DNA of 42,634 nt from Cochliopodium minus (taxonomy: Eukaryota; Discosea; Himatismenida; Cochliopodiidae): NCBI GenBank assembly GCA_024220525.1, contig JAMYWO010000302.1:1-42634 (forward strand), in the 5' to 3' direction. This document shows positions 9,162 to 40,458 of the stretch, one piece after another. Position 1 is the first letter of the stretch. Each line of letters begins with the position of its first letter. The notes under the pieces were generated by a model. It saw only the letters and a program-made list of their open reading frames with translations, was not told where the DNA came from and searched no databases. Position numbers and translations under genes: made by a program.

Positions 9162-11807
9162 ATGGATAAACCAAAATTTAAGATCAATTTAAAAGATGAG
9201 GATGATTATGATGAGGAATTGAAGGAGAATCACGAAGAAGAGGAGAAATCGAAAAAAGAGAATATGGTGAATCCTTTCGATTTGAGTCCAATACACAAAA
9301 AGAAAAGAGATGCATATGATTGGTTCAAGGTAAAAAAGGAAGAAAAATTAATTAAAATAAAATTTTATTATTATAATTGCCATATCCTTACCAATAATCA
9401 TTATCAACTTGATATATTAACTAATGTTCAATTAATTAACAATAAATGGAATAGATAATCGTTTGTGGGTAAATTTATTGAGAAATAATTTACTTTTGAT
9501 TTTTTTAATCCCTCCCACTTATTTGATTATCAGATTAACCTTGCTTCCAATCAGATTGATCCTTCTGATATTGATCCTATGCATCAACTATCTTCTCATC
9601 AAACTCACGATTATAGGGAAATCTTTCAAAGATCTTCAAGAAAAGCCACTTACAGGATGGAGAAGAAACTTGAGAGACTATTCAATCAAAATTTCAACCA
9701 GAATGATTATCTTTTTGTTGGGGTAATTTCTTTTTTTCTTTTTTGTATTATTCAAAATTTATTCAAAAAGATTTTATTGGATAAACGTGAAAGGAAAACC
9801 AGCAAGTAGAAACGAAGCACCAGTGGTTGTTGGGAACCACACTTCATGGATAGAACCTATTTTGATGACTTCCCAACTTTGGTAATTTAAAATTTTATTT
9901 TAATTTATTTTACTTTTAAAATTTATTCTGATAAAATTTTTTCCACAAGTCCAATGACTGTTTCAAAAGTAAAATTAATTTAAATAATAATTTATTTTTT
10001 ATTTTAATAATAATTTTATGTATATTTATTAATGTGTTTTTTCTTTTAAAAAGATTGAAAATGCAAAACTTCCATTTATAGGTTCTTTTTTTTTGTCAAC
10101 ACAGTCAATATTGATTGCAAGAGAAGATAAAAATAATAAAGAAGGAGCAAAAGTATTACTTGAGTCAAGACCTAAATCAAATTTACCATGGAAACAACTC
10201 TTGATTTATCCTGAAGGTAAAATAAAATAAAATTTTTTAATTATTTTAAAAGATAGATTAAATGTGATTTTTAAATTAAAGGAACTTGTACAAATGGAAA
10301 TGCATTGGTCCAATTCAAACAAGGTAAAATAAAAGTCTTTTTAGTTTATTTCATTTTAAAAAATTCAATTTCTCAAATAATTTTAAAAGGAGCTTTTTTG
10401 AGTGGAGTTCCTGTTCAACCAGTGATTGTTTCATGGAAAAGAAATAAACACTATGTAAAATTTATCAAATTTAATTTATTCACCACAATTTGAATTAAAA
10501 TTTTGTTTTGTTTATTTTCGAAATAGGATCCTACATTTCCAAGTAAGAAAGTTTTTTCAAAAATTTGTTTTTAATGATTGAATTGGATTAGTTGGAGTAA
10601 ATATGGGATTATCTTTTTTGAAATGTTTGACTCAATTTGTAAATTACGTTGATATTACTTACTTGGATGTATACTATCCAAATGAAGAAGAGAAAAAAGA
10701 TCCTTTTTTGTATGCTGAAGGAGTTCGCCAAAAAATGGCCAGTGCAATGTAAAATAATTTTATTTGTTCATCATTTTTTGTTTTGAATTTGATTTGATTT
10801 TTTTTGATTTTCATTTTTTCATTTTTTAAAATTTTAAATATTTAAAGGAATGTTCCGACTACTAATCATGCTTTCGAAGATGTTATTATGATGCAAAATG
10901 CAATCAAGAAAAACCTACCAAGAAATTCCTACAATACACAATACAGTACTTTAAGACAAATGTCCAAAGATTTTTCACTCGACAAAGTAAAACAATCAAA
11001 CTTTTCTTTTTGTTTCATCTTGAAATAATTTCATTTTTTATTAAAGGCGAAAGAGCTTCTAGAAAAGTTTGCTAATTATGGGCAAAACCACACCGGGAAA
11101 GTTTCAGCAAGCGAATTTTGTCACGTAAAATTTTTTTTTTACTCTTATTCTTTAAAAGTTTTATTTCTTTTTTCATTTTTCCAAAATAACAAAAAAATTA
11201 TTTGAAATTTTAATAGGCTCTTTCAATGCCATTCAACGGGTTTACATCTCAACTCTTCCAATTATTTGATGTAAATCAAGATGGTGAAATTGATTTCAGG
11301 GAATTTGTTATTGGGTAAAAATAAAATACATGAAACAATGAAACAAAACAATATTTCTTATTTAAAAACTTTATTATTTAATATGAATAATATTTTAATT
11401 GAAAAAGAATGACTTATTTGAGCTCCAAAAATAATGCAGAAGCCTCTAAAACGATCCAATTTTGTTTTGAGGAGTTGGACAGCGACAAAGACGGCTTTAT
11501 TGAGAAAAAAGACTTCAAATCTCTTTTCGGGAAAATCGCTGGAAACAGTTGGAAGGAGATCGAAGCTATCTTCGACAAAATCGATACATCTCAGAGCGAA
11601 AAGATTTCATCCAAACAATTCATCGATTATCTCAAACATAATCCTGAACATACTTTCATCTTCAAAGCTTTGGCTTATGCCATCATTGAAAACACCAACT
11701 TGAACAATATTAGAATGAGCAGGCTTAGACAGGGTTCTGTTTCTATGAGTGGTTTTATTTTGGAGTATCAAAAGAGAAAAGAGCAACAATCTAAAGATAA
11801 TAATTAA
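9162..11807 (+). CDS. LPCAT-type lysophospholipid acyltransferase with EF-hands, copy 1
   Basis: About 14 exons. A short acidic N terminus leads to a membrane anchor (LTLLPIRLILLILILCINYLL), then the PlsC/LPLAT acyltransferase domain: motif 1 VVVGNHTSWIEP, motif around YWINVKGKPAS, motif 3 LIYPEGTCTNGNALVQFKQG and motif 4 SGVPVQPVIVSW. The C terminus has three EF-hand units: FDVNQDGEIDFREF (complete loop), DSDKDGFIEKKD (near-complete) and DTSQSEKISSKQ (degenerate). This order matches LPCAT1/2, which reacylate lysophosphatidylcholine with acyl-CoA at ER or lipid-droplet membranes. Oddity: motif 1 is HX4E rather than HX4D (residues encoded at 9838-9855). Several exons are very small, for example IIVCG (14 nt) and DPTFP (16 nt). 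First of three tandem copies. Confidence 0.88.
9601..10220 (+). repeat. Conversion tract 1, partner 12230-12849
   Basis: 620 bp aligned to copy 2 at a constant offset of 2629, with no indel and only two substitutions found by eye, including the introns. Sequence on both sides is clearly diverged. Confidence 0.85.
10389..10913 (+). repeat. Conversion tract 2, partner 13006-13530
   Basis: 525 bp aligned to copy 2 at offset 2617, with no difference found by eye across exons and introns. It is separated from tract 1 by a diverged block (10221-10388). Confidence 0.85.
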
Positions 11808-11920: not shown

Positions 11921-14382
11921 ATGGAAAATTTGAGAAAAGAGAATATTTTGAATCCTTTCGATTTGAGTCCAATACACAAAAAGAAAAGAGGTGCATATGA
12001 ATTGTTCAAGGTAAAAAAAGAAGAAAAAAAAAATTCATCACAATATCTTTCAATCATTGACATTAATTAACAATAAATGGAATAGATAATCGTTTGTGGG
12101 TAAATTAATAAGAAATTATTTTACTTTTGATTTTATAATCCCTCCACTTATTTGATTATCAGATTGACCTTGCTTCCAATCAGATTGATTTTGATATTGG
12201 CAACCTTTGTTACCACATTGATGATATTAAAACTCACGATTATAGGGAAATCTTTCAAAGATCTTCAAGAAAAGCCACTCACAGGATGGAGAAGAAACTT
12301 GAGAGACTATTCAATCAAAATTTCAACCAGAATGATTATCTTTTTGTTGGGGTAATTTCTTTTTTTCTTTTTTGTATTATTCAAAATTTATTCAAAAAGA
12401 TTTTATTGGATAAACGTGAAAGGAAAACCAGCAAGTAGAAACGAAGCACCAGTGGTTGTTGGGAACCACACTTCATGGATAGAACCTATTTTGATGACTT
12501 CCCAACTTTGGTAATTTAAAATTTTATTTTAATTTATTTTACTTTTAAAATTTATTCTGATAAAATTTTTTCCACAAGTCCAATGACTGTTTCAAAAGTA
12601 AAATTAATTTAAATAATAATTTATTTTTTATTTTAATAATAATTTTATGTATATTTATTAATGTGTTTTTTCTTTTAAAAAGATTGAAAATGCAAAACTT
12701 CCATTTATAGGTTCTTTTTTTTTGTCAACACAGTCAATATTGATTGCAAGAGAAGATAAAAATAATAAAGAAGGAGCAAAAGTATTACTTGAGTCAAGAC
12801 CTAAATCAAGTTTACCATGGAAACAACTCTTGATTTATCCTGAAGGTAAAAAGTTCTTTAAAAGTTAATCATTTTTAAATGTGATTTTTAAATTAAAGGA
12901 ACTTGTACAAATGGAAGTGCTATTGTTCAATTCAAACAAGGTAAAATAAAAGTCTTTTAGTTGATTTCATTTTAAAAAATTCAATTTCTTAAATGATTTT
13001 AAAAAGGAGCTTTTTTGAGTGGAGTTCCTGTTCAACCAGTGATTGTTTCATGGAAAAGAAATAAACACTATGTAAAATTTATCAAATTTAATTTATTCAC
13101 CACAATTTGAATTAAAATTTTGTTTTGTTTATTTTCGAAATAGGATCCTACATTTCCAAGTAAGAAAGTTTTTTCAAAAATTTGTTTTTAATGATTGAAT
13201 TGGATTAGTTGGAGTAAATATGGGATTATCTTTTTTGAAATGTTTGACTCAATTTGTAAATTACGTTGATATTACTTACTTGGATGTATACTATCCAAAT
13301 GAAGAAGAGAAAAAAGATCCTTTTTTGTATGCTGAAGGAGTTCGCCAAAAAATGGCCAGTGCAATGTAAAATAATTTTATTTGTTCATCATTTTTTGTTT
13401 TGAATTTGATTTGATTTTTTTTGATTTTCATTTTTTCATTTTTTAAAATTTTAAATATTTAAAGGAATGTTCCGACTACTAATCATGCTTTCGAAGATGT
13501 TATTATGATGCAAAATGCAATCAAGAAAAATCTTCCCCTTAATTCATACAACACTTTTTACAGTAATCTTAGAGAAATGTCCAAAGATTTTTCAATAGAC
13601 AAAGTAAAACAATCAAACTTTATCTTTTTGTTTTCAAATAATTCCATTTTCTTTTTACAAAAGGCGAAACAACTATTAGAAAAGTTTGCGAGTTACTGTA
13701 AAAATAATACTGGAAAAGTTTCAGCAAGTGAATTTTGTCAAGTTAAAAAAAATTTTTATTTTTTTTTTCTTCTTTAAAAGTTTTATTTCTTTTGTCATTT
13801 TTCCAAAATAACATAAAAAATTATTTAAATTTTAATAGGCTCTTTCAATTCCATTCAATGGGTTTACATCTCAACTCTTCCAATTATTTGATGTAAATCA
13901 AGATGGTGAAATAGATTTCAGGGAATTTGTCTCTGGGTAAAAAATAAATAAAATAAAAAAATATTAATAAAATAAACAATATTTGTTAATAAAATTTTAA
14001 ATTACAAAGAATGTTTTATTTGAGCTCCAAAAATAACGCTGAAGCTTCTGAGACTATCCAATTTTGTTTTTCTACAATGGACAAAGATAAAGACGGACTT
14101 GTTGACAAAAATGATTTCAAAACTCTTTTCGGAAAGATTTCTGGGAAGAACTGGCCAGATGTTGAAAGATTATTTGACCGAATAGACAACAAAAGAAACA
14201 AGAAAATCTCCGCAGATCAATTCATTGAATTTCTCAAGGATAATCCTGAGCATACTTTTATTTTCAAAGCTTTGGCTTATGCCATTGTACAAAATTCTAG
14301 CATTTCTGATATTAGATTGAGTTTATTGAATCAATCTATAAATTTGAGTAACTTTGTATTAGAAGATGATTCTTCCAAATGA
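11921..14382 (+). CDS. LPCAT-type acyltransferase with EF-hands, copy 2
   Basis: Same architecture and intron positions as copy 1. The N terminus is shorter (MENLRKENILNPFDLSPIHK) and starts only 113 bp after the copy 1 stop. Anchor LTLLPIRLILILATFVTTL; motif 1 VVVGNHTSWIEP, again HX4E (12467-12484); motif 3 LIYPEGTCTNGSAIVQFKQG; motif 4 SGVPVQPVIVSW. EF-hands: DVNQDGEIDFREF, MDKDKDGLVDKNDF, and a third degenerate unit DRIDNKRNKKISADQ. The acyltransferase core is almost identical to copy 1, introns included, while the ends (exon 3 start, exon 7, exon 11 end, EF-hands) differ at many sites. No broken frame was seen. Likely a phospholipid-remodelling enzyme with possible calcium response; the E-for-D change makes its activity uncertain. 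Confidence 0.87.
12230..12849 (+). repeat. Conversion tract 1, partner 9601-10220
   Basis: See 9601-10220. It includes the exon with the HX4E motif, so both copies carry the same altered motif. Confidence 0.85.
13006..13530 (+). repeat. Conversion tract 2, partner 10389-10913
   Basis: See 10389-10913. Identity stops abruptly inside an exon, right after the codons for AIKKN. Confidence 0.85.
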
Positions 14383-27072: not shown

Positions 27073-27353
27073 TTTTTTTTTTTATTTTTTATCAATTTTT
27101 CTTTTTTTGAAAATGAATTTTTTTTTGAATAAACAAGCCCACATTTTGGTGAAAAAATTAACTTCTTTGACTCAATTGAAGTTCATAATTTCTAAACTTT
27201 CTATTAAAATTTAAAAAACAGATCACGAAGACCAATAGCTTTAAATAGATCAAAATTGAAGAGCTAAAATTTGAGTAGGAAAGTGGTTCAACAAAATGAA
27301 TTTTTTTCATTTGATTTTTATAAAAAAAAAAGTAAAGAAAGAAAAGGATATCA
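27073..27353. other. Divergent intergenic region, pyrophosphatase / ATPase
   Basis: 281 bp between the two start codons, presumably a shared promoter region. No metal-responsive or other defined element could be identified. Confidence 0.4.
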
Positions 27354-30300
27354 ATGGAATTAGAAGAAAATACATCAGATTTAACCAATATTAGAGAAGA
27401 ATCTATTTTTGGGAATGATCTAAAGAAAAATAATGGCCCCTCATTTAAATTTACAACCTGCAAAAAAGGATGTTGTGATAAGAAAGAATCATCGGGATTT
27501 AATGAGGGAAATAAAAAGAAGAAATCAGAATCATCATGCGAAGAATCTTATTGTTCAGAAGATAAGGAAATTATCAACTCAAATTTGAATAATAAGGATA
27601 TTGAGGAAAAATCTTGTTGTGATGAGAATGGATCTTGTAATGGTGAAGATAAAGATCCAATTGTGATTCAATCAGAAGAAAAATCATGTTGTGATGAGAA
27701 TGGATCTTGTGGTGAAGAAAAAACCGAGATTGTTGAAAAAATAAGCACAGATTCAGAAAAGAAAGTTGAGGAAGAATTTAGTTGCTATGAGAATGGATCT
27801 TGTAATGAAGAAAATAAAGAGCCAATTTTAATTCAATCAGAAGAGAAATCTAGTTGTGATGAAAATGGATCTTGTGGTGAAGAAAAAACCGAGATTGAAA
27901 TAATCAGCACAGATTCAAGAAAGAAAGTTGAGGAAGAATCATGTTGTGATGAGAATGGAATATGCAATAGCACCAAAGATTCTAGTTTTGTTTTTGATGA
28001 ATCTTCTTTTGATCAGTTAAAGTCCTTCGCCATAGAGAACAGAAAACCTTGCTGCGAGAAGGGATCATGCATCACCTCCAAAACATCCAACACCAACAAA
28101 TCTTGCAAATCATGCTGTACTAAACCTTGTTGTGAGAATAAGATTCAATCTGCATCTCCTGAAAATTCGTGTTGCGATGAGAATGGAATTTGTAGTGAAG
28201 AAAAAAAGGAATCCCTTGTTACCCAAATCGTTGAGAAATCGTGTTGCGATGAGAATGGATCTTGTAATTCTGTCTTGAATGTTGAATCGATTTCTTTTGG
28301 GGAAGTAGATGGTACTTTGGGAAAAGATCCCACTGTTTCTCGAATATCAGAAGAAAAGTCTTGTTGTGAGGGAGGATCTTGTGGAGATGAAGAAAGAAAA
28401 ATCGAATCAAATTCAATAATGAAATCATCGTGTTGTGATGAGGAAGGATCATTCGATAACAAAACAAACAAAGAGTCCCAACCAAAAGAGAAATCATGTT
28501 GCGATGAGAAAGGATCTTGTAATTCAGGCTTGAATGTTGAATCTATTTCTTTCACTGAAGTAAAATCATCGTGTTGTGATGAGAATGGATCATGCAATGA
28601 AGAAAAGAAAGAACCTTTTGTTATTCAAAAAACAAAGACAACGTGTTGCGATGAGAAAGGATCTTGTAGTAGTGAAAAAAAAGAATCTCTTATTCTCCAA
28701 ACAAAAGAAAAGTCTTCTAGCAATGAGGTGGGATCCTCTAATGGGGAAATTATAATTGAGCCCATCATAACCCAAAAATCAAAGAAATCTTGTTGTGACG
28801 AAAGAGGATCTTGTAATGAAGGGAAGAAAGAACTGATTGTAATTCAAGAAGAAAAGAATTCATGTTGTGATGAGAAAGGATCTTGCAGCTCAACTAAAAA
28901 CATAGTCCAAAGCATTGTGATTCCCACTTTTGGTCGATCTTTCGTAGAAACAAAGAAATCTTGTTGTGGTGAGAATGGATCTTGTAATGAAGAAAAAAAA
29001 GAACCGATTGTAATTCAAGAAGAAAAGAATTCATGTTGTGATGAGAATGGATCTTGTAATGAAGAAAAGAAAGAACCGATTGTAATTCAAAAAACAAAGG
29101 TATCATGTTGTGATGAGAAAGGATCTTGCAGCTCAACTAAAAACACAGGCCAAAGCATTGGGATTCCCTCTTTTGGTCAATTTACTCCCAGCAACCAAAT
29201 AAAGAAAGATCAATCCGTCGTAGAAACAAAGAAATCTTGTTGTGATGAAAGAGGATCTTGTAATGAAGGGAAGAAAGAACCGATTTTAATTCAAAAACCA
29301 AAGGTATCATGTTGTGATGAGAAAGGATCTTGCAGCTCAACTAAATCAACAAATAATATTGAAATGATCTCTTTTAGCGAAGCAAAGTCATGTTGTGAAA
29401 GTAAAAATTGTGAAGATGACATAGAAATTAAAGAGTTAGACGATGATGATATGAATCTGCAATTAATTATTGAAGGGTATGGACTAGATTTTTAATTTTT
29501 CTTCTTTAAGCATTTTTTGTTTAAAAGTATGGACTGTGGAGGTTGCTGTAACGAAATTGAGAACAAGCTGAAAAACAACGAGGGAATAGAAAAGGTGTTC
29601 GTCAATTTCATCAACTCCACCTGCTACATCAAGTACGATGAAAGAGCAACGGACATTAAAGAAATAATAAAGAACATTGAATCGCTAAACTTCAAGGCCT
29701 CCATTAAAGACACCAGCAAAGGAAGCGACATTGATCTTATCAGCAAAAAAGATGAAATCCAAAAAAACAAAAATTACTTTATATTTTCTTTGATCTTCTT
29801 CGCTCCTGTTTTGTTGACGATGATTTTGCTCCTCAACAAGAAAACCAAACAAACCATTCAAAAGAAGAGGGTAGGAATCATGAGTATTGAGTACATCGTC
29901 GCTTTCATCTTTTGTTTGCCTTCTCATTTTTGGCTGGGGAGAATATTTCATCTTCCAGCTCTAAAGGCCATCATGGCCAAAACAGCAACAATGGATGTTT
30001 TAGTAAAATTTTTTAAAATAAAAAATATCAAGAAAAAAATTAATTTATAATTTAAATTATTTTTTAAAAAATATTAATAAATGAAATTTTAATTTCATTA
30101 TTAAAAAGAAACATGATTTTCATTTTTTATTGATTCTAGGTGTCAATGGGAATGTGGGCAGCTTTTATTTACTCTTTCGTTGCAATGGTGATAGGCTTTT
30201 TTGACAGTAATTTCAACAGCCCTCTTTTCTTCGAAACTCCCGTCACACTCATCACGTTCATTCTCTTGGGAAGACTAATTGAATCGATTGCCCAGTCAAA

Positions 30301-33300
30301 AACGACCGAGTCACTCACAAAGTTGATAAGTTTACAAGTGCAATCTGCTCATTTAATCGTAGAAGCAAAGAATTATGACCAAAATGAAGTTAATTTTCAT
30401 TCTTTGAAGGAAAAAGAGGTAGAAACTTCTTCCTTGAAGAAATTCGACATCATTAAAATCTACCCCGGAGAAAAAGTTCCTATTGATTCTGTTGTGGTCA
30501 AAGGGGAAAGTTCGGTTGATGAATCTATGGTTAGTGGTGAATCGATGCCTAGAAACAAGATTGTGGGAGACAAATTGATTGGATCCACAGTAAACCAAGA
30601 AGGTTGAATCTTTTTTTAAATCTTTTTTTTTTTGATTTAATTTTTTGGTTTTTAGGTCTTTTAATTGCTCAAGGTGAATTATTTTTTAATTTTTATTAAT
30701 TTTTTATTTTTTCCAGTTTATTTTTTTAATTTATTTAAATTATTTTGATTTGGATTTGGATTTTTTTTATAATTTTGATTTGATTTATTTTTGTTTTTCT
30801 GTTACTTATCATTTTAATTAATATTTATAAATCTTTTTATTTTTCTTTTTATATTTTTATATTTTTTTAGTAAGCAAAGTTGGTTCGCAGACGTTTCTTT
30901 CCCAAATGATAAGACTAATAGAAAACGCACAAAAAGAAAAGCCAAAAATCCAAAAGATGGTCGATAAAGCTTCTTCTGTATTCGTCCCATTGGTCATTGC
31001 TGTTTCTCTTTTTTCATTTTTGATCTGGTTCTTTTTGTCATCAGCACATATAGTAAAAAACAAATTCAATAAAATAAAAATAAAATTGATTATCTTTTCA
31101 TAAAAAAATATTTAAAATTAAAAAATTTAAAAAATAAATTAAATATTTTTAAATTTAAATTAATTAAATTGTTTTCATAAAAAATTTTAGATCCCAGCTA
31201 AATGGATTCCAAAAGGTATTCTTTTTTTTTTTTTTTGAATTTTTGTTGAAAACTTTTTTCGTTTTTAAAATCAGAGTACAACAACTTTCTCTTCTCTCTC
31301 ATCTTTGCAATTTCTGTTTTGGTTATTTCATGTCCTTGTTCTCTTGGTAAAAATTAATTAAACAGTCTCATTTTTATCATTTTTAACATTTTATTTTAAT
31401 TTTTTTTTTAAAAAAAAATAAGGATTGGCAGTTCCAACAGCAGGTAAAAACATTTTTTCAAACATAAATTTTGATAATTTTTTTGTTTGATTTTAATTTT
31501 TTCATTTATTTTAGTTATGGTGGGTGTTGGTGTGGCTTCAAATTATGGAATACTTATTAAGGACGGATCTATTTTCCAAAACACCCAAAAAATAAAACAC
31601 TTTGTGTTTGATAAAGTAAAAAATAAAAAATAAAAAATAAAAAATAAAAATAAAAATATAAAATTTTTTAAAAAATAAAAAATGAAAAATAAAAAATGAA
31701 AAATGAAAACTAAATATTTAAAAATTGATTTTAGACAGGAACCCTCACTCATGGAAACTTTTCCGTTACTGATTGGACTCTATTGGACAGAGGAGTGTTT
31801 GAAGATGACAAATCTTTCTTTAGGACCTTGGCCTCTGCTGAAAATCCAAGCCAACACTTGCTAGCAAGAGCGATCAAAAGTAAAAATTTAAAAAATCAAA
31901 AATTATTTGGAAAAATTAATTTAAAAAATCAAAAAATATTTTAAAATAATTCAAAAAAAGTATTAAAAAAATTTTTTAAAAAGAAAAAGCAAAGGAGTTT
32001 TTGGAAGATGGAGAAATGAAAGAGGCTTTGAAGTGGCAAAGCTTCTCAGGGAAAGGAATCTCTTGCGAAATCGACAAACAACAAGTTTTGATAGGAAACA
32101 AGGAATGGGTTCTCAAAGGAGAAAAAGTTAACATTCTTCTGGAAGAACAAATAAGGAATTTTTCTAATGAAGGAAAGACTGTCTTGTACGTTAGTGTAGA
32201 TGACAAATTATCTGGTAAAAATTCTTAATTTTTTTTTTTTTTTTTATTTTTCAATCTTAATTTATATTTAAATATTTATTTTTATTTTTATTTTTATTTA
32301 ATTTTATCTTTTTAATATTTAATATTTATTTTTAATTAGTTTCAATATTATGTTTATGTTTATTTTTATTTTTATTTTTATTTTTATTTTTATTTTTATT
32401 TTTATTTTTATTAATAGGTCTTATCTATTTTGCTGACACTGTTAGAGAGCAAGCATCTACAGTTATTCACCACCTTGAAAACAAACTTAATATAAGATGT
32501 TGGATGATAACTGGTAAATAAATATTTCTTCAAAAAAAAAGTTTTTTTTTGTTTTATTTTAATTTTTTTTTTTAATTTTATTTTTTATTTATATTAATTC
32601 ATTTTTTTGTACGAAGGAGATAATTTTACTGTTGCAAGTAGAGTTGCTGAACAAGTAGGTATCGACACCAACAACATACTTGCTGATGTTTTACCTGAGG
32701 ACAAAGTAAATAAAATACCTTTTTTCCCAACAAATTTTTTTGAAAAAAAAATAAAACTAAATTTTTTAGGTGAAGAAAATCAAGGAATTACAAAATGGTA
32801 ATACTGTGGTAAAATTTTTTAAAAAAAAACTTTTTTTCTTTAAAAATTTTTCTCAAAATCATTAAGGTGGCAATGGTTGGAGATGGAATCAATGATTCTC
32901 CGGCATTGGTACAAGGTAAATTCTAATTTTTCTTTAAAAAAAAAAATTAAAAGATTAAATCCAATACATTTTCAAAATTTAGCTGATTTGGGAATTGCTA
33001 TAGGAGCAGGAACAGACATAGCACTAGAATCTGCCCAAGTAGTCTTGGTGAAAAGCGATCTCAAGGATCTCCTCACCCTCCTCTCCCTCTGCAAATCCAT
33101 CTTCACCTCAATCAAATTCAACGTGGCATGGTCTTTCTTGTTAAACTCTGTCGCCATCTCTTTTGCAAGTGGACTGTTTTATCCTTTTATTAATCCTGTC
33201 ATCATTCCTCCTTCTTTGTCTGCTGTTGTCATGCCTTTCACTTGTTTGGTCATCATTCTCAAGTGCCTCTCTTTGAAGTTTTTCAGGCCTCCTTTTGTTC

Positions 33301-33353
33301 AAGAAGTAAAGTTGAAAAAGAAACGTGGTTATCAAAGATTGATCGATAATTAA
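27354..33353 (+). CDS. Copper-type P1B ATPase with long Cys-rich N-terminal array
   Basis: ATP-driven metal exporter with an extra N-terminal domain, about 1,500 residues in 16 exons. Exon 1 (27354-29476) codes ~700 residues with about 24 Cys-rich units. A 51-nt intron (29477-29527) joins NLQLIIEG to MDCGGCCNEIENKL, giving one complete HMA domain with the GMxCxxC metal site. ATPase parts follow: ATMDVLVSMGMWAAFIYS; actuator VSGESMP; metal-site helix VISCPCSLGLAVPTAVM; phosphorylation site DKTGTLTHG; SQHLLARAI; MITGDN; hinge MVGDGINDSPAL; last helices WSFLLNSVAISFASG and SAVVMPFTCLVII. CPC, MDVL and PTAVMVG are typical of Cu(I) P1B-1 pumps (CopA/ATP7). Departures from the family: SEHPL appears as SQHLL, the TM7 YN as LN, and the TM8 MxxSS as MPFTC. 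The array probably binds Cu(I), as metallothioneins do. Confidence 0.85.
27459..29413 (+). repeat. Cys-rich tandem repeat array (core CCDENGSC)
   Basis: About 24 units with core S-C-C-D/E-E-N/K/R-G-S-C, separated by Lys/Glu-rich spacers such as NEEKKEPIVIQ or NSVLNVESISF. About 70 cysteines. Spacers fall into a few recurring classes, pointing to higher-order duplication. One unit (28713-28739) has every Cys replaced by Ser. Confidence 0.92.
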
Positions 33354-36089: not shown

Positions 36090-39000
36090 ATGAAATTAGT
36101 TAGAAGATTAGTATCAAAAAACAAGAAGAGATTCCAAAGCGATGGATACGATTTGGATTTATCATGTAAAAATAAACAAACAACTTTCAATTTGATTGGA
36201 TATTTAAAAATTTTTAAATTTAAAAAATTTTAAAAAAGATATAACGGATAGAATAATCGCAATGGGATATCCAAGTGAAGGAAAAGAAAGTTTCATTAGA
36301 AATAGGTCAAACAAATAATAAAAAAAATATTTAAAATTTTTTATAGTGTATGAATTATTTATTTTATTCGTGATGTTTTTGATTGTGCAGAATGATTGAT
36401 GTAAAAGAATTCTTTCAAGAATATCATCCAGGGAAATACATGATTTATAATTTATGCAGTGAAAGAAAATACAATCCTTCTCATTTTCTTGGGAATGTCC
36501 AAGAATTTGGATTCGATGATCATAATGCCCCACCATTCAAGATGATCATAGAATTTTGCAAACATGTATCTGAATTTTTAGAGAAGGATTCCGAGAGGAT
36601 AGGTAAGGAGAAAGCGGAGTTTTTTAAATGCTATTATTTAGTTAATTGTAACTATCTTTTTACTCTTTATATTCAATTCTAGTTGCGATTCATTGCAAGG
36701 TATGAATCTATCAAATATAACAAAAACATTCATTTCAAAGGATTTATTTTCAAATAAAACTTATCATGTTATTTGATCTATCCAAATTTACCAATTAATA
36801 AATATATAATCGGATAATGAAAATATTTATACGTATAATATTAAATTGAACATAATATCCAATCAAAATAAACAACTCATCTTGATCAAAAAATCAAACA
36901 CATCTGATTAATATAATTTTTTTCAAAAACATTTATTTAGGCAGGCAAAGGAAGAACAGGAACGATGATCTGCTGCTTTTTAATATTCAGCAACAAATGT
37001 CAATCAGCATCTGAATCTCTCAACTTTTATGGCAACATCAGAACCAAAGATGGCAAAGGGGTCACCATCCCTTCTCAGATCAGATATGTGGGGTATTATC
37101 ACAAGTATCTCACTTCTGGCAATAAGATCCCCTTTCCCACCAAGAGAATCCTCAAACATATAAAGATCAATTCCATCCCTGATTTCGATGTATTTGGTGG
37201 TTGTTCGCCATGGTAAATCTTGATTATTTTATTATCAAAAAAAAAAAAAAAAATGGATAAATTCAAAATAACAACAATTTCTGAAGATTATACTCTTTGT
37301 TGATGAAAATTTGTCAGTAAAAATGTTAGAAGAATCGTATTTATAAAAATATACAAAATGATAAAATGATAATTAAGATATATATTTAACTTATGTTGAG
37401 ATATAAATGATCCAACATATATTGAGCTGACTAAATTCTTACAAAAAAAATTTCAACAATTATATTCAATATATTCAGGACAATACTTTCCTTATTCTTT
37501 AGAATCAACTTAAATTTAAATAATTTATCCTTTACAAAAAAAGAATCTTTTCACCATAAAATATTCATTGTTATTAATTAACATTTTATGAAGGTTTTCT
37601 ATCACGAGTTTATTGAGCGAAAGAACTTTGTATTCTACAAAACCACTCAATGGCGCCAAAGGGAAGTACCAAGTTGAGTTCTCTTGCCATTCGATACAAC
37701 TGGAAGGAGATTTAAAAATTTCTTTCTTCAACAAAAATTCCTCTGTAATTTTTTTTAAATAAAATGTTAAATTAAAAAGTTTAAAATTCAATAATCAAAA
37801 TTCAAAATTCTTTTTTGTTAAAATTTAATTTTCATTTTTTAAAATAGAATTTGATGTTTTATCTTACCGTAAATCTGGGATTTATCAACTTATCAGGAAA
37901 CGTGGTTATAAAGAAAAGAGACATAGACAAAGCACATAAAGACAAAGAGTGCAAACACTTCCCAGAGTATTTTCAAATCGAGCTCTTCTTCGACATGGTC
38001 ACCGAGAAGCCTCCTTGTCCTGGTTGTAGCAGCAGTGATTTTGGTTCTAACAAGGAGTCTATCGTGATCAATGGGGTTGTTTGGCATTGGGATTGCATTT
38101 GCTGCAAAACCTGTAATACTTTGATTGGGAAGGATGCTGTCTTTGTGGATAATTTCGCTTATTGTCAAGAGTGTAAGGTAAGAACTCTATGTTTTTAATT
38201 TTTTTTCATTTTATTTTAATATATTTTTGTTATTTATTTTTTTGATTAAATTTAAATTTAATTTAAAATATAATTTTTATTTTATTATTTATTTTTTTAT
38301 TTATTAGTCAGAGTTCTTTGCAAATTGCCAATCTTGTAAAAAGATGATAGGAAGACAGGGTTGTAAGAATGTGGGAGGGTTGTCGTGGCACAAAGAATGT
38401 TTCAAATGTATTGTCTGCACCAAACATGTCACAGACAAAAAGAAATATTTGACAGGCGACAAAAAACCTATCTGTAAAACTTGTTACAGAATCAGTTTAG
38501 AAGAATTAAAAGATAGTGTTGAATTAGGTAAAATTTCATTTTAATTTCTTTTTTATTTATTTTTATTTTATTTTTCTTTAATATTATCTTAAATTTCAAA
38601 ATTTTTTTTTATTATTATTTGATTTTTTTATTTTTTATTTATATTTATTTTATTATTAATTTTGTAAAAAATATTTTCTAATAATTTTATTTTTTTTTAA
38701 AAATAGAGGATTATGATGAACCTGCAGAAGAGAATTTGATCAATGATTTGGAAGAGATCATCGAGGAGATAATAGAGGAGATCCCAAATAAAGTGATCAT
38801 CACCCAGCAAGTAGTTTTAGAAGAAGTGAAAGCACCTTCTCCCATAATAGAAACCCCTCCCAAACAACCCGAACCAAAAATAGAAACTAAATCTGAACCA
38901 AAGCCCGAAACCAAACCTGAACCTAAAGCTGAACCCAAAATTGAAACTAAACATGAGCCAAAACATGAACCAAAGTTTGAATTAAAATCGGAACCTAAAC

Positions 39001-40458
39001 AAGAGCCAAGGATTGAACCAAAACAAGAATTTAGACATGAACCTAAACAAGAATTTAGACATGAACCTAAAGGTTTTTTTTTTTAAAAAAATATAAAATT
39101 TCCAAATAGAATTGAATTATTTTGCAGTAAAATAAATTAAATTAAAATTTTACATTTATTTTAGTTTTTATTAAAATTAATCTATCTAAAATAAATAAAA
39201 AGAATTTCAATTTTATGAATAAATAAAAACCCAATTTTTTAAAAAAGCGTTTTAAAATTAACTTGATTCTATTTTTTTTTTTCAAAAAAAAGCTACATCA
39301 CCTCGTAAAGATAACATCCCACCTCCACAGCCAAAGCAAGAGACCCAACAGCCTAAACCCAGACAAGACAACCCTCCTCCACAAACCAACCAACAAACCA
39401 AATATGTCAACATGACTCCTCCCCCAAACCAATCCCAAAATCAACCACAAAGAAATTTACAAAAACCCAATCCAAATAGTAACAATCCTCCTACCTCCAA
39501 TAACCCTGTACAGTATGTTAATATGACTCCCACAAGAAATTCTGTGTAAAATTTTTTTTTATTTTTTTTTAAAAAAAAATCTATTTTTATTTATATTTTA
39601 ATATTTTTATTTATATTTTTATTTATTAATATATTTTTTTATCAATATTTTTTTTCATTTTTTTTCATTTTTTATTTTTTTTATTTTTTTTAGTACTTCT
39701 CAACCTCGTACACGTCCTGATATTAAAAACACAAACCAAACACAACATCCTCCAAACCAAAATATATCAAACAATAGACGAGATGAACCAAGAAGGGATT
39801 TAAAGTATTTTTCTTCAACTTTTCAAAATTTTTATTAATTTTTTTTTAAAATTTATCATTGAAATTTTTATTTTTAATTTATTGTTGTTAATTTCTTTTT
39901 ATTTATAAATAATAAAGTCAAAATGTAAACACAAATCGTGATAGAGAGAGTAAGGGAAGAGAGTTGCCTATCTGTCACACTTGCAACAAGGAAATAACCT
40001 CGATTGCTACTGTTGCAGGAGGACGTCGTTATCACAGTCAATGCTTCGGGTGTACAAAATGCAAAAAGAGGTAAATTTAAGAATTAAAAAAATAAAATTA
40101 TTTCTAAAAAAAATTTAAATAAAAAATAAATTTAAATTAAAAATATTTTTTTAAAAAAATGTTTATTACAAAAAATGTAACGAAATTATTTTTTTTTAAA
40201 ATTTTTAGTATCTTTTCTTCGAGCTATTATGTGATTGACAGTAACCCTTTGTGTATGACTTGTTACGAAGATTACAAAAACAACAGAGCTAATAATTGTG
40301 CTAAATGTAACCAGAAGATTATAGGTCCTAATGTCATCGCCATGAACAAATCTTTTCACGAAAAATGTTTTGCTTGTCAGAAGTGTCATAGACCTATCAA
40401 CGATTCAATGTTTTATTTTCAAAATAACTTACCCATCTGTAAATCTTGTTCTAATTAA
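36090..40458 (+). CDS. PTEN phosphatase-C2 protein fused to four LIM domains
   Basis: About 13 exons. Start ATG 36090: KLVRRLVSKNKKRFQSDGYD aligns with the PTEN N-terminal lipid-binding segment. The phosphatase domain has DRIIAMGYP, MIYNLCSERKY, the WPD-equivalent FDDHNAPP, P-loop HCKAGKGRTG and GVTIPSQIRYVGYY; all catalytic residues are present. The C2 domain follows: CSPWFSITSLLSERTLYS, KGKYQVEFSCH, LKISFFNK, and DIDKAHKDKECKHFPEYF up to IELFF. Instead of the PTEN tail, LIM1 (PCPGC, WHWDCICC, YCQEC) and LIM2 (CQSCKKMIG, WHKECFKC, CKTCY) follow at once. Next come an acidic helix, an EPK-rich repeat and a Pro/Asn/Gln-rich linker with two YVNMTP motifs. LIM3 and LIM4 (ICHTCNKE, YHSQCFGC, NCAKCNQK, FHEKCFAC) end the protein at TAA 40456-40458. 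Predicted PtdIns(3,4,5)P3 3-phosphatase placed on an actin or adhesion scaffold. Confidence 0.9.
38868..39070 (+). repeat. EPK-type short tandem repeat in the LIM linker
   Basis: In-frame imperfect repeats of EPK-x-E-x-K, ending in a duplicated KQEFRHEP unit. Charged and disordered; likely variable in length. Confidence 0.8.

Follow-up and report, generated by a model that had tools for sequence, protein, structure and literature searches.

The window analyzed here, a stretch of 42,634 nucleotides from Cochliopodium minus (contig JAMYWO010000302.1), carries on its forward strand a predicted gene in which a long cysteine-repeat array precedes a heavy-metal pump of the P1B type. The array, the single HMA domain, the pump and the splice joining them are read directly from the sequence. 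In window positions, the features are:

27354..33353, + strand: whole array-pump gene; spliced, 16 exons, 1497 residues and 82 Cys
27354..29476, + strand: exon 1, with the Cys array and the start of the HMA domain (open reading frame, splicing, composition count)
27615..29333, + strand: 21 recognizable CCDENGSC-type units (repeat finding, unit comparison)
29391..29411, + strand: terminal CCESKNC at residue 680, directly before the HMA domain (motif count, position read)
29463..29696, + strand: single HMA domain with GMDCGGC, interrupted by intron 1 (PF00403)
29477..29527, + strand: intron 1, 51 bases (GTATGG...AAAAG), holding the in-frame TAA 29493-29495 (splicing)
29528..30002, + strand: exon 2, with the bulk of the HMA domain and the first transmembrane helices (profile match, splicing)
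30140..30602, + strand: exon 3, actuator domain with SGES replacing TGES (PF00122, 57.1 bits; open reading frame 30140-30604)
31331..31339, + strand: CPC of the transport helix (splicing, position read)
31610..31743, + strand: DKTGT phosphorylation motif, cut by the intron 31616-31734 (splicing)
31855..31860, + strand: HL replacing the HP dipeptide of the nucleotide domain (alignments)
33141..33146, + strand: helix 7 Leu-Asn replacing Tyr-Asn (alignments)
33231..33245, + strand: helix 8 MPFTC replacing MxxSS, with one Cys gained (alignments)

All 15 introns removed from positions 27354-33353 are of the GT-AG type, the spliced frame has no internal stop, and an in-frame TAA lies 5' of the start codon at 27333. 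The exon borders were placed by eye, guided by family motifs, and the contrast in GC content between introns (10%) and exons (36%) supports this choice. The open reading frame that carries the array extends from 27354 to 29495, where it ends at a TAA.

Elsewhere on the contig, two EF-hand open frames (11409-11807 and 14011-14382) lie in surroundings that themselves repeat, with tandem-repeat units matching at 9978/12607 and 10777/13394, which suggests a tandem gene duplication. A piece of a protein kinase domain (PF00069; 35192-35617) is found 3' of the pump gene, and a tandem repeat with periods of 12 to 48 bases (38866-39071) lies within the open frame 38736-39086, for which no Pfam family was found at E<=0.01.

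Of the complete codons in exon 1, 707 in number, 70 specify Cys (9.9%), in agreement with the original prediction of about 70. Glu accounts for a further 15.4%, Ser for 15.1%, Lys for 12.4% and Phe for 2.5%; His and Trp are absent. The regularity of the array was likewise correctly described, but its size was overestimated at about 24 units: 21 units are recognizable and 17 of these keep all three Cys, with one Cys missing at residues 143, 167 and 360 and all three missing at residue 455. A Cys cluster, CKSCCTKPCC, lies apart from these units at residues 251-260. The commonest spacing between CC-x4/5-C motifs is 24 residues or 72 bases (7 of 18 spacings), and nine pairs of units stand at exactly this distance with spacers that resemble NEEKKEPIVIQ, e.g. 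NEEKKEPIVIQEEKNS. Chance or a low-complexity artefact is ruled out as the source of the array by the conservation of the Cys codons and by the number of CC-x4/5-C motifs: the array has 19, whereas 2000 shuffled versions of its residues averaged 1.2 and never exceeded 6.

When 19 of the 21 units are compared, excluding those of only 7 residues at 233 and 337, pN/pS amounts to 0.09 at the three Cys codons, 0.29 across all eight codons of the motif and 0.48 in the nine doublet spacers, and without the unit at 455 it falls to 0.04 for the Cys codons and 0.23 for the motif codons; all these ratios are rough given possible sequence exchange among repeats and synonymous Cys sites close to saturation. 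Even so, the low values and the synonymous changes in the Cys codons indicate that the Cys residues are retained. Metallothioneins are small, very Cys-dense proteins with few aromatic residues, and the array, with 707 residues, 9.9% Cys, 2.5% Phe and no Pfam family at E<=1 in a profile search, does not fit this description. A search of solved structures in the PDB with the array gave no match at E<=0.01. A repeat of this composition would probably fold poorly and, given the conserved Cys codons and the absence of His and Trp, its role is likely to be metal binding.

The pump core scores 569.9 bits against NCBIfam TIGR01525 (cut-off 346.25), which places it among the P1B heavy-metal ATPases. 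With the copper family TIGR01511 it reaches 502.3 bits, relative to a cut-off of 397 that is not clean and is also passed by the Zn-type frames L088 and L078, and with the cadmium family TIGR01512 it reaches 345.8 bits (cut-off 313.5), ~157 bits below TIGR01511. The best PDB matches are the P-type Cu(+) transporter and Copper-transporting ATPase 2, which we take to be ATP7B, with 566 bits each, followed by copper-transporting HMA4 (521 bits), CopA (446 bits) and a zinc-transporting ATPase (230 bits). A paralog from the same genome, on contig C277, shares 48.7% of 754 aligned positions with the core, EcCopA 31.0% and EcZntA 27.1%. With CPC, DKTGT, TGDN and GDGIND kept and the frame open across 16 exons, the prediction of a complete CPC-type ATPase is confirmed, as is that of a single HMA domain, for which PF00403 gives one match.

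To place the ion site, the pump was aligned with 21 others, i.e. EcCopA, EcZntA, the C277 paralog, a C-terminal piece from contig C44 and 17 bacterial frames longer than 450 residues with DKTGT, from which shorter and duplicate frames had been dropped. Cu(I) pumps of the P1B-1 group are marked by YN in helix 7 and MxxSS in helix 8. The helix 7 Tyr and Asn and the helix 8 Met are present in all eight comparators with CPCxLG, and the helix 8 Ser-Ser in all seven of these that cover the site, the gene model of the C277 paralog stopping at the Met; Y-N-M as such occurs in 13 of the 21. The pump has LN in helix 7, which alone is no safe mark because L070, a comparator with CPCALV that passes the TIGR01511 cut-off, shares this LN and continues with H and GS. 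The HP dipeptide is found in 20 of 20 comparators covering the site and is HL in the pump, with the histidine kept. SGE in place of TGE also occurs in one bacterial comparator (L072). The P1B-2 marks, Lys in helix 7 and Asp in helix 8, are absent from the pump, which has Asn and Met at these positions. Its HMA domain has GMDC rather than GMTC and fits the GMDCxxC of P1B-2 pumps, a common but not universal mark; the Asp is found in three of four comparators with the Lys and Asp marks and in none of nine with Y-N-M and an aligned residue, four more being gapped there.

The copper-pump family scores combined with the changed residues in helices 7 and 8 indicate that the core descended from copper pumps and that its ion site has been altered. 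The original assignment as a copper ATPase therefore holds at the level of family and PDB scores, but not for the ion-site residues, which depart from all eight CPCxLG comparators. Copper identity is not established because the helix 7 Tyr and the helix 8 Ser-Ser are replaced, and with two copper-site hallmarks changed and HP replaced by HL, transport or copper specificity may be reduced. From the sequence, copper is a reasonable guess for the transported metal, and we give Cu(I) and Cd(II) roughly even odds as the metal moved. For the original suggestion of a role against copper loading in phagosomes, the analysis provided no support. An altered ion site on a copper-type core also provides a natural test of the residues that set metal choice.

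In the genome as a whole (44.65 Mb, 598 contigs), a 24-base pattern of the unit, allowing as many as three mismatches, gives 15 matches at the array locus and a single further one, isolated, on contig C87, and a search with the array as protein found no locus besides the array-pump gene. Matches to the pump core fall in the C277 gene and in parts of C44 and C87; several other contigs have one weak match each, and these may represent further P-type ATPases. The C277 paralog (L035, reverse strand), modelled short of its first and last exons, is a pump of the Cu type that has CPC, MYN and a pair of HMA domains with MTCSSC, ahead of which a degenerate HMA domain is possible; its modelled exons contain no Cys array. 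On C87 (L038, 114001-122000), fragments of another Cu-type pump seem to be arranged in the wrong order about a run of N, which may reflect misassembly or the decay of this copy. An exon-by-exon search, the count of which is a lower bound, found at least six HMA matches, none of them outside C277, C44 and the array-pump gene, and no stand-alone Atx1-like chaperone. A Ctr-type copper importer is represented by one match in the genome, and an Fe-hydrogenase by two adjacent matches, which are probably from one gene and uninformative as a marker of anaerobes.

Beyond this genome, the exact motif pattern occurs in nine prokaryotic contigs of the genome_contigs collection (84,980 species), with a single match in each, compared to a chance expectation of ~7 that is a rough, uncomputed estimate; the adjoining stretches read contain neither an array of the CCDENGSC unit nor a P1B pump. 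Two of the nine matches lie in long Cys-rich frames, L046 from Polyangiaceae (91 Cys) and L053 from Myxococcaceae (81 Cys), each with one CCDENGTC amid different Cys-rich sequence. Among viral contigs, the exact motif scan gave no match and the pump-core search no confirmed relative. Plasmids searched with the array gave no match, and for the pump core the best identity was ~36-37% among the matches listed. Together with the 15 introns, the intron-exon GC contrast and best PDB matches that are eukaryotic-type copper pumps, so low an identity argues against bacterial contamination or a recent transfer of the pump. In open-licence titles and the openings of abstracts, we found no P1B pump fused to a metallothionein-like or Cys-repeat array of such regularity.

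Array and pump do not lie in one continuous frame, and joining them requires the removal of intron 1, which is shorter than any of the other 14 and has a donor, GTATGG, that is among the four of 15 other than GTAAA(A/T). Across this intron the splice product reads LQLIIEG/MDCGGCCNEIENKL (the slash marks the intron), MDCGGCC following the Gly. In the C277 paralog an intron lies inside the same Gly codon before IEG/MTCSSC, in phase 1 as opposed to phase 2 in the array-pump gene, and a Gly-codon intron recurs before its next ISIEG/MTCSSC; an intron after TMDVL has place and phase common to both genes. Spliced, the HMA domain scores 54.0 bits with PF00403 over profile positions 2-62. The alternative is that the locus holds two genes, i.e. 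a free Cys-repeat protein of 713 residues acting as a metallothionein-like chelator, and a pump that starts with a clipped HMA domain at the ATG at 29529. The first open frame does stop at the TAA, the clipped domain, read unspliced from the exon 2 ATG, still reaches 47.0 bits over profile positions 7-62, the intron donor is of a less common type, and free multi-module metallothioneins occur in Oikopleura (PMC8283569). Against these points, the TAA and the ATG are only 33 bases apart, the first residues of the HMA domain are encoded ahead of the TAA, and the paralog has an intron in the same codon. We consider two separate genes very unlikely indeed and, from the split HMA domain, the paralog intron and the 33-base gap, suggest that array and pump very likely form one gene; the original prediction is thus supported by sequence in joining the two, although not as one unbroken frame. 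The 9-base sequence GTATGGACT opens intron 1 at 29477 and recurs directly across its 3' boundary at 29527 (29477-29535), one base off the splice sites; an origin of intron 1 from a target-site duplication is not upheld, as this repeat is offset and none was found in register.

As the best reading, we suggest that the pump is a soft-metal exporter derived from copper pumps with a tethered thiolate buffer or sensor, akin to yeast Pca1 and plant HMA4 but having a longer and regular repeat. More specifically, one gene would encode a P1B-1-derived heavy-metal exporter with an N-terminal tether of ~20 three-Cys soft-metal sites, which on the sequence data we hold to be somewhat probable. In this model, (i) the N-terminal half would be a tether, probably disordered, with ~20 three-Cys sites, (ii) the Cys thiolates would bind a soft metal, either Cu(I)/Ag(I) or Cd(II), and paired units with six Cys could perhaps build one metal cluster, (iii) the loaded array would buffer metal at the membrane and may signal its load via stability, targeting or relief of inhibition, and (iv) the HMA domain or the cytosol would supply the CPC transport site, with ATP driving export. 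Judged from its number of thiols, the capacity of the array could be ~20 ions if each takes three Cys, and more if clustered. Points against this buffer-pump model include the loss of Cys in four of 21 units, the TIGR01512 score above cut-off, the changed copper-site residues and, for the junction of array and pump, the shortness and less common donor of intron 1 and its phase, one base off that of the paralog. Under a rival explanation, which we regard as unlikely, the pump has drifted and moves metal poorly, and the protein is chiefly a membrane-anchored chelator or sensor. The changes of YN to LN, MxxSS to MPFTC, HP to HL and TGE to SGE fit such drift, and there is a parallel in Pca1, in which copper resistance depends on N-terminal Cys binding and not on ATPase activity (PMC5909057); but DKTGT, CPC, TGDN, GDGIND and the histidine of HP are kept, the 16-exon frame is intact and SGE recurs in the bacterial comparator.

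That the array is a degradation or targeting switch, with an unloaded array marking the pump for removal, metal hiding the signal and capacity being secondary, has a precedent in the Cys-rich N-terminal domain of Pca1, which is a cadmium-sensing degradation signal (PMC10654040), but ~20 repeats would seem more than a switch needs and look built for capacity; we consider this quite unlikely. A combined scheme, in our view very unlikely, would have a copper-type pump rewired for another soft metal such as Cd(II), an amplified ZntA-like CCDxxGxC buffer and two outputs, with splicing of intron 1 giving the tethered pump and its retention a free 713-residue metal store that stops at the in-frame TAA; if true, how much metal is stored and how much exported would depend on a single splicing decision. 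The tethered buffer or sensor that we favor bears on a wider debate, in which the Cys- and His-rich tails of eukaryotic metal pumps are seen as receptors, targeting signals, filters or brakes (PMC10654040) and autoinhibitory tails are argued for (PMC11970713). As ~20 near-identical units allow stepwise shortening, capacity and signalling could be separated in the array.

Among known systems, the original prediction allowed copper pumps only short Cys-rich ends, which is too strong a statement in light of PcaA (PMC5909057) and plant HMA4 (PMC10654040). Pca1 and PcaA resemble the array-pump gene in combining a Cys-rich N-terminal extension that binds Cd with a CPC-type P1B pump, PcaA also having an HMA domain (PMC5909057, PMC10654040); this likeness, taken from descriptions, is one of architecture. 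In PcaA Cys makes up 8.2% of the first 400 residues, by arithmetic ~33 Cys, and the excerpted description mentions no regular repeat (PMC5909057). The tail of the Arabidopsis Zn pump HMA4, with 13 Cys pairs and 11 terminal His, is similarly a long, Cys-rich, high-capacity chelator or sensor (PMC10654040), but it is C-terminal, ends in His and belongs to a P1B-2 pump, whereas the array is N-terminal, His-free and attached to a P1B-1-derived core. Full-length HMA4 gives yeast no protection until this tail is shortened (PMC10654040), suggesting that a tail need not feed its pump.

The E. coli ZntA sequence has CCCDGAC ahead of a GMDCAAC HMA domain, as the array has repeated CCDENGSC ahead of GMDCGGC, but in ZntA the motif is single and the core is of the Zn type (27% identity); the likeness of the motifs may be due to chance. 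In the N-terminal domain of ZntA, Pb binding is lost once CCCDGAC is removed (PMC10800456). The P1B-1 copper pumps (ATP7A/ATP7B, the copper-transporting HMA4 of the PDB and CopA) provide the top family and PDB matches of the core, but have YN and MxxSS where the array-pump gene has LN and MPFTC. Eukaryotic copper pumps have one to six HMA sub-domains, with two in Dictyostelium (PMC3308323), CrpA combines three HMA domains with two CxxC motifs (PMC5447758), and an autoinhibitory role has been proposed for the tail of LpCopA (PMC11970713). A paper on copper in Naegleria mentions a copper-exporting ATPase, and the word cysteine is absent from its text (PMC9035749). The Oikopleura metallothioneins (OdiMT2) share with the array their tandem Cys modules, the number of which sets metal capacity, but are free proteins of 12-Cys modules with no pump attached (PMC8283569). 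Among the known P1B pumps with a Cys-rich tail, the array-pump gene is unusual in scale and regularity.
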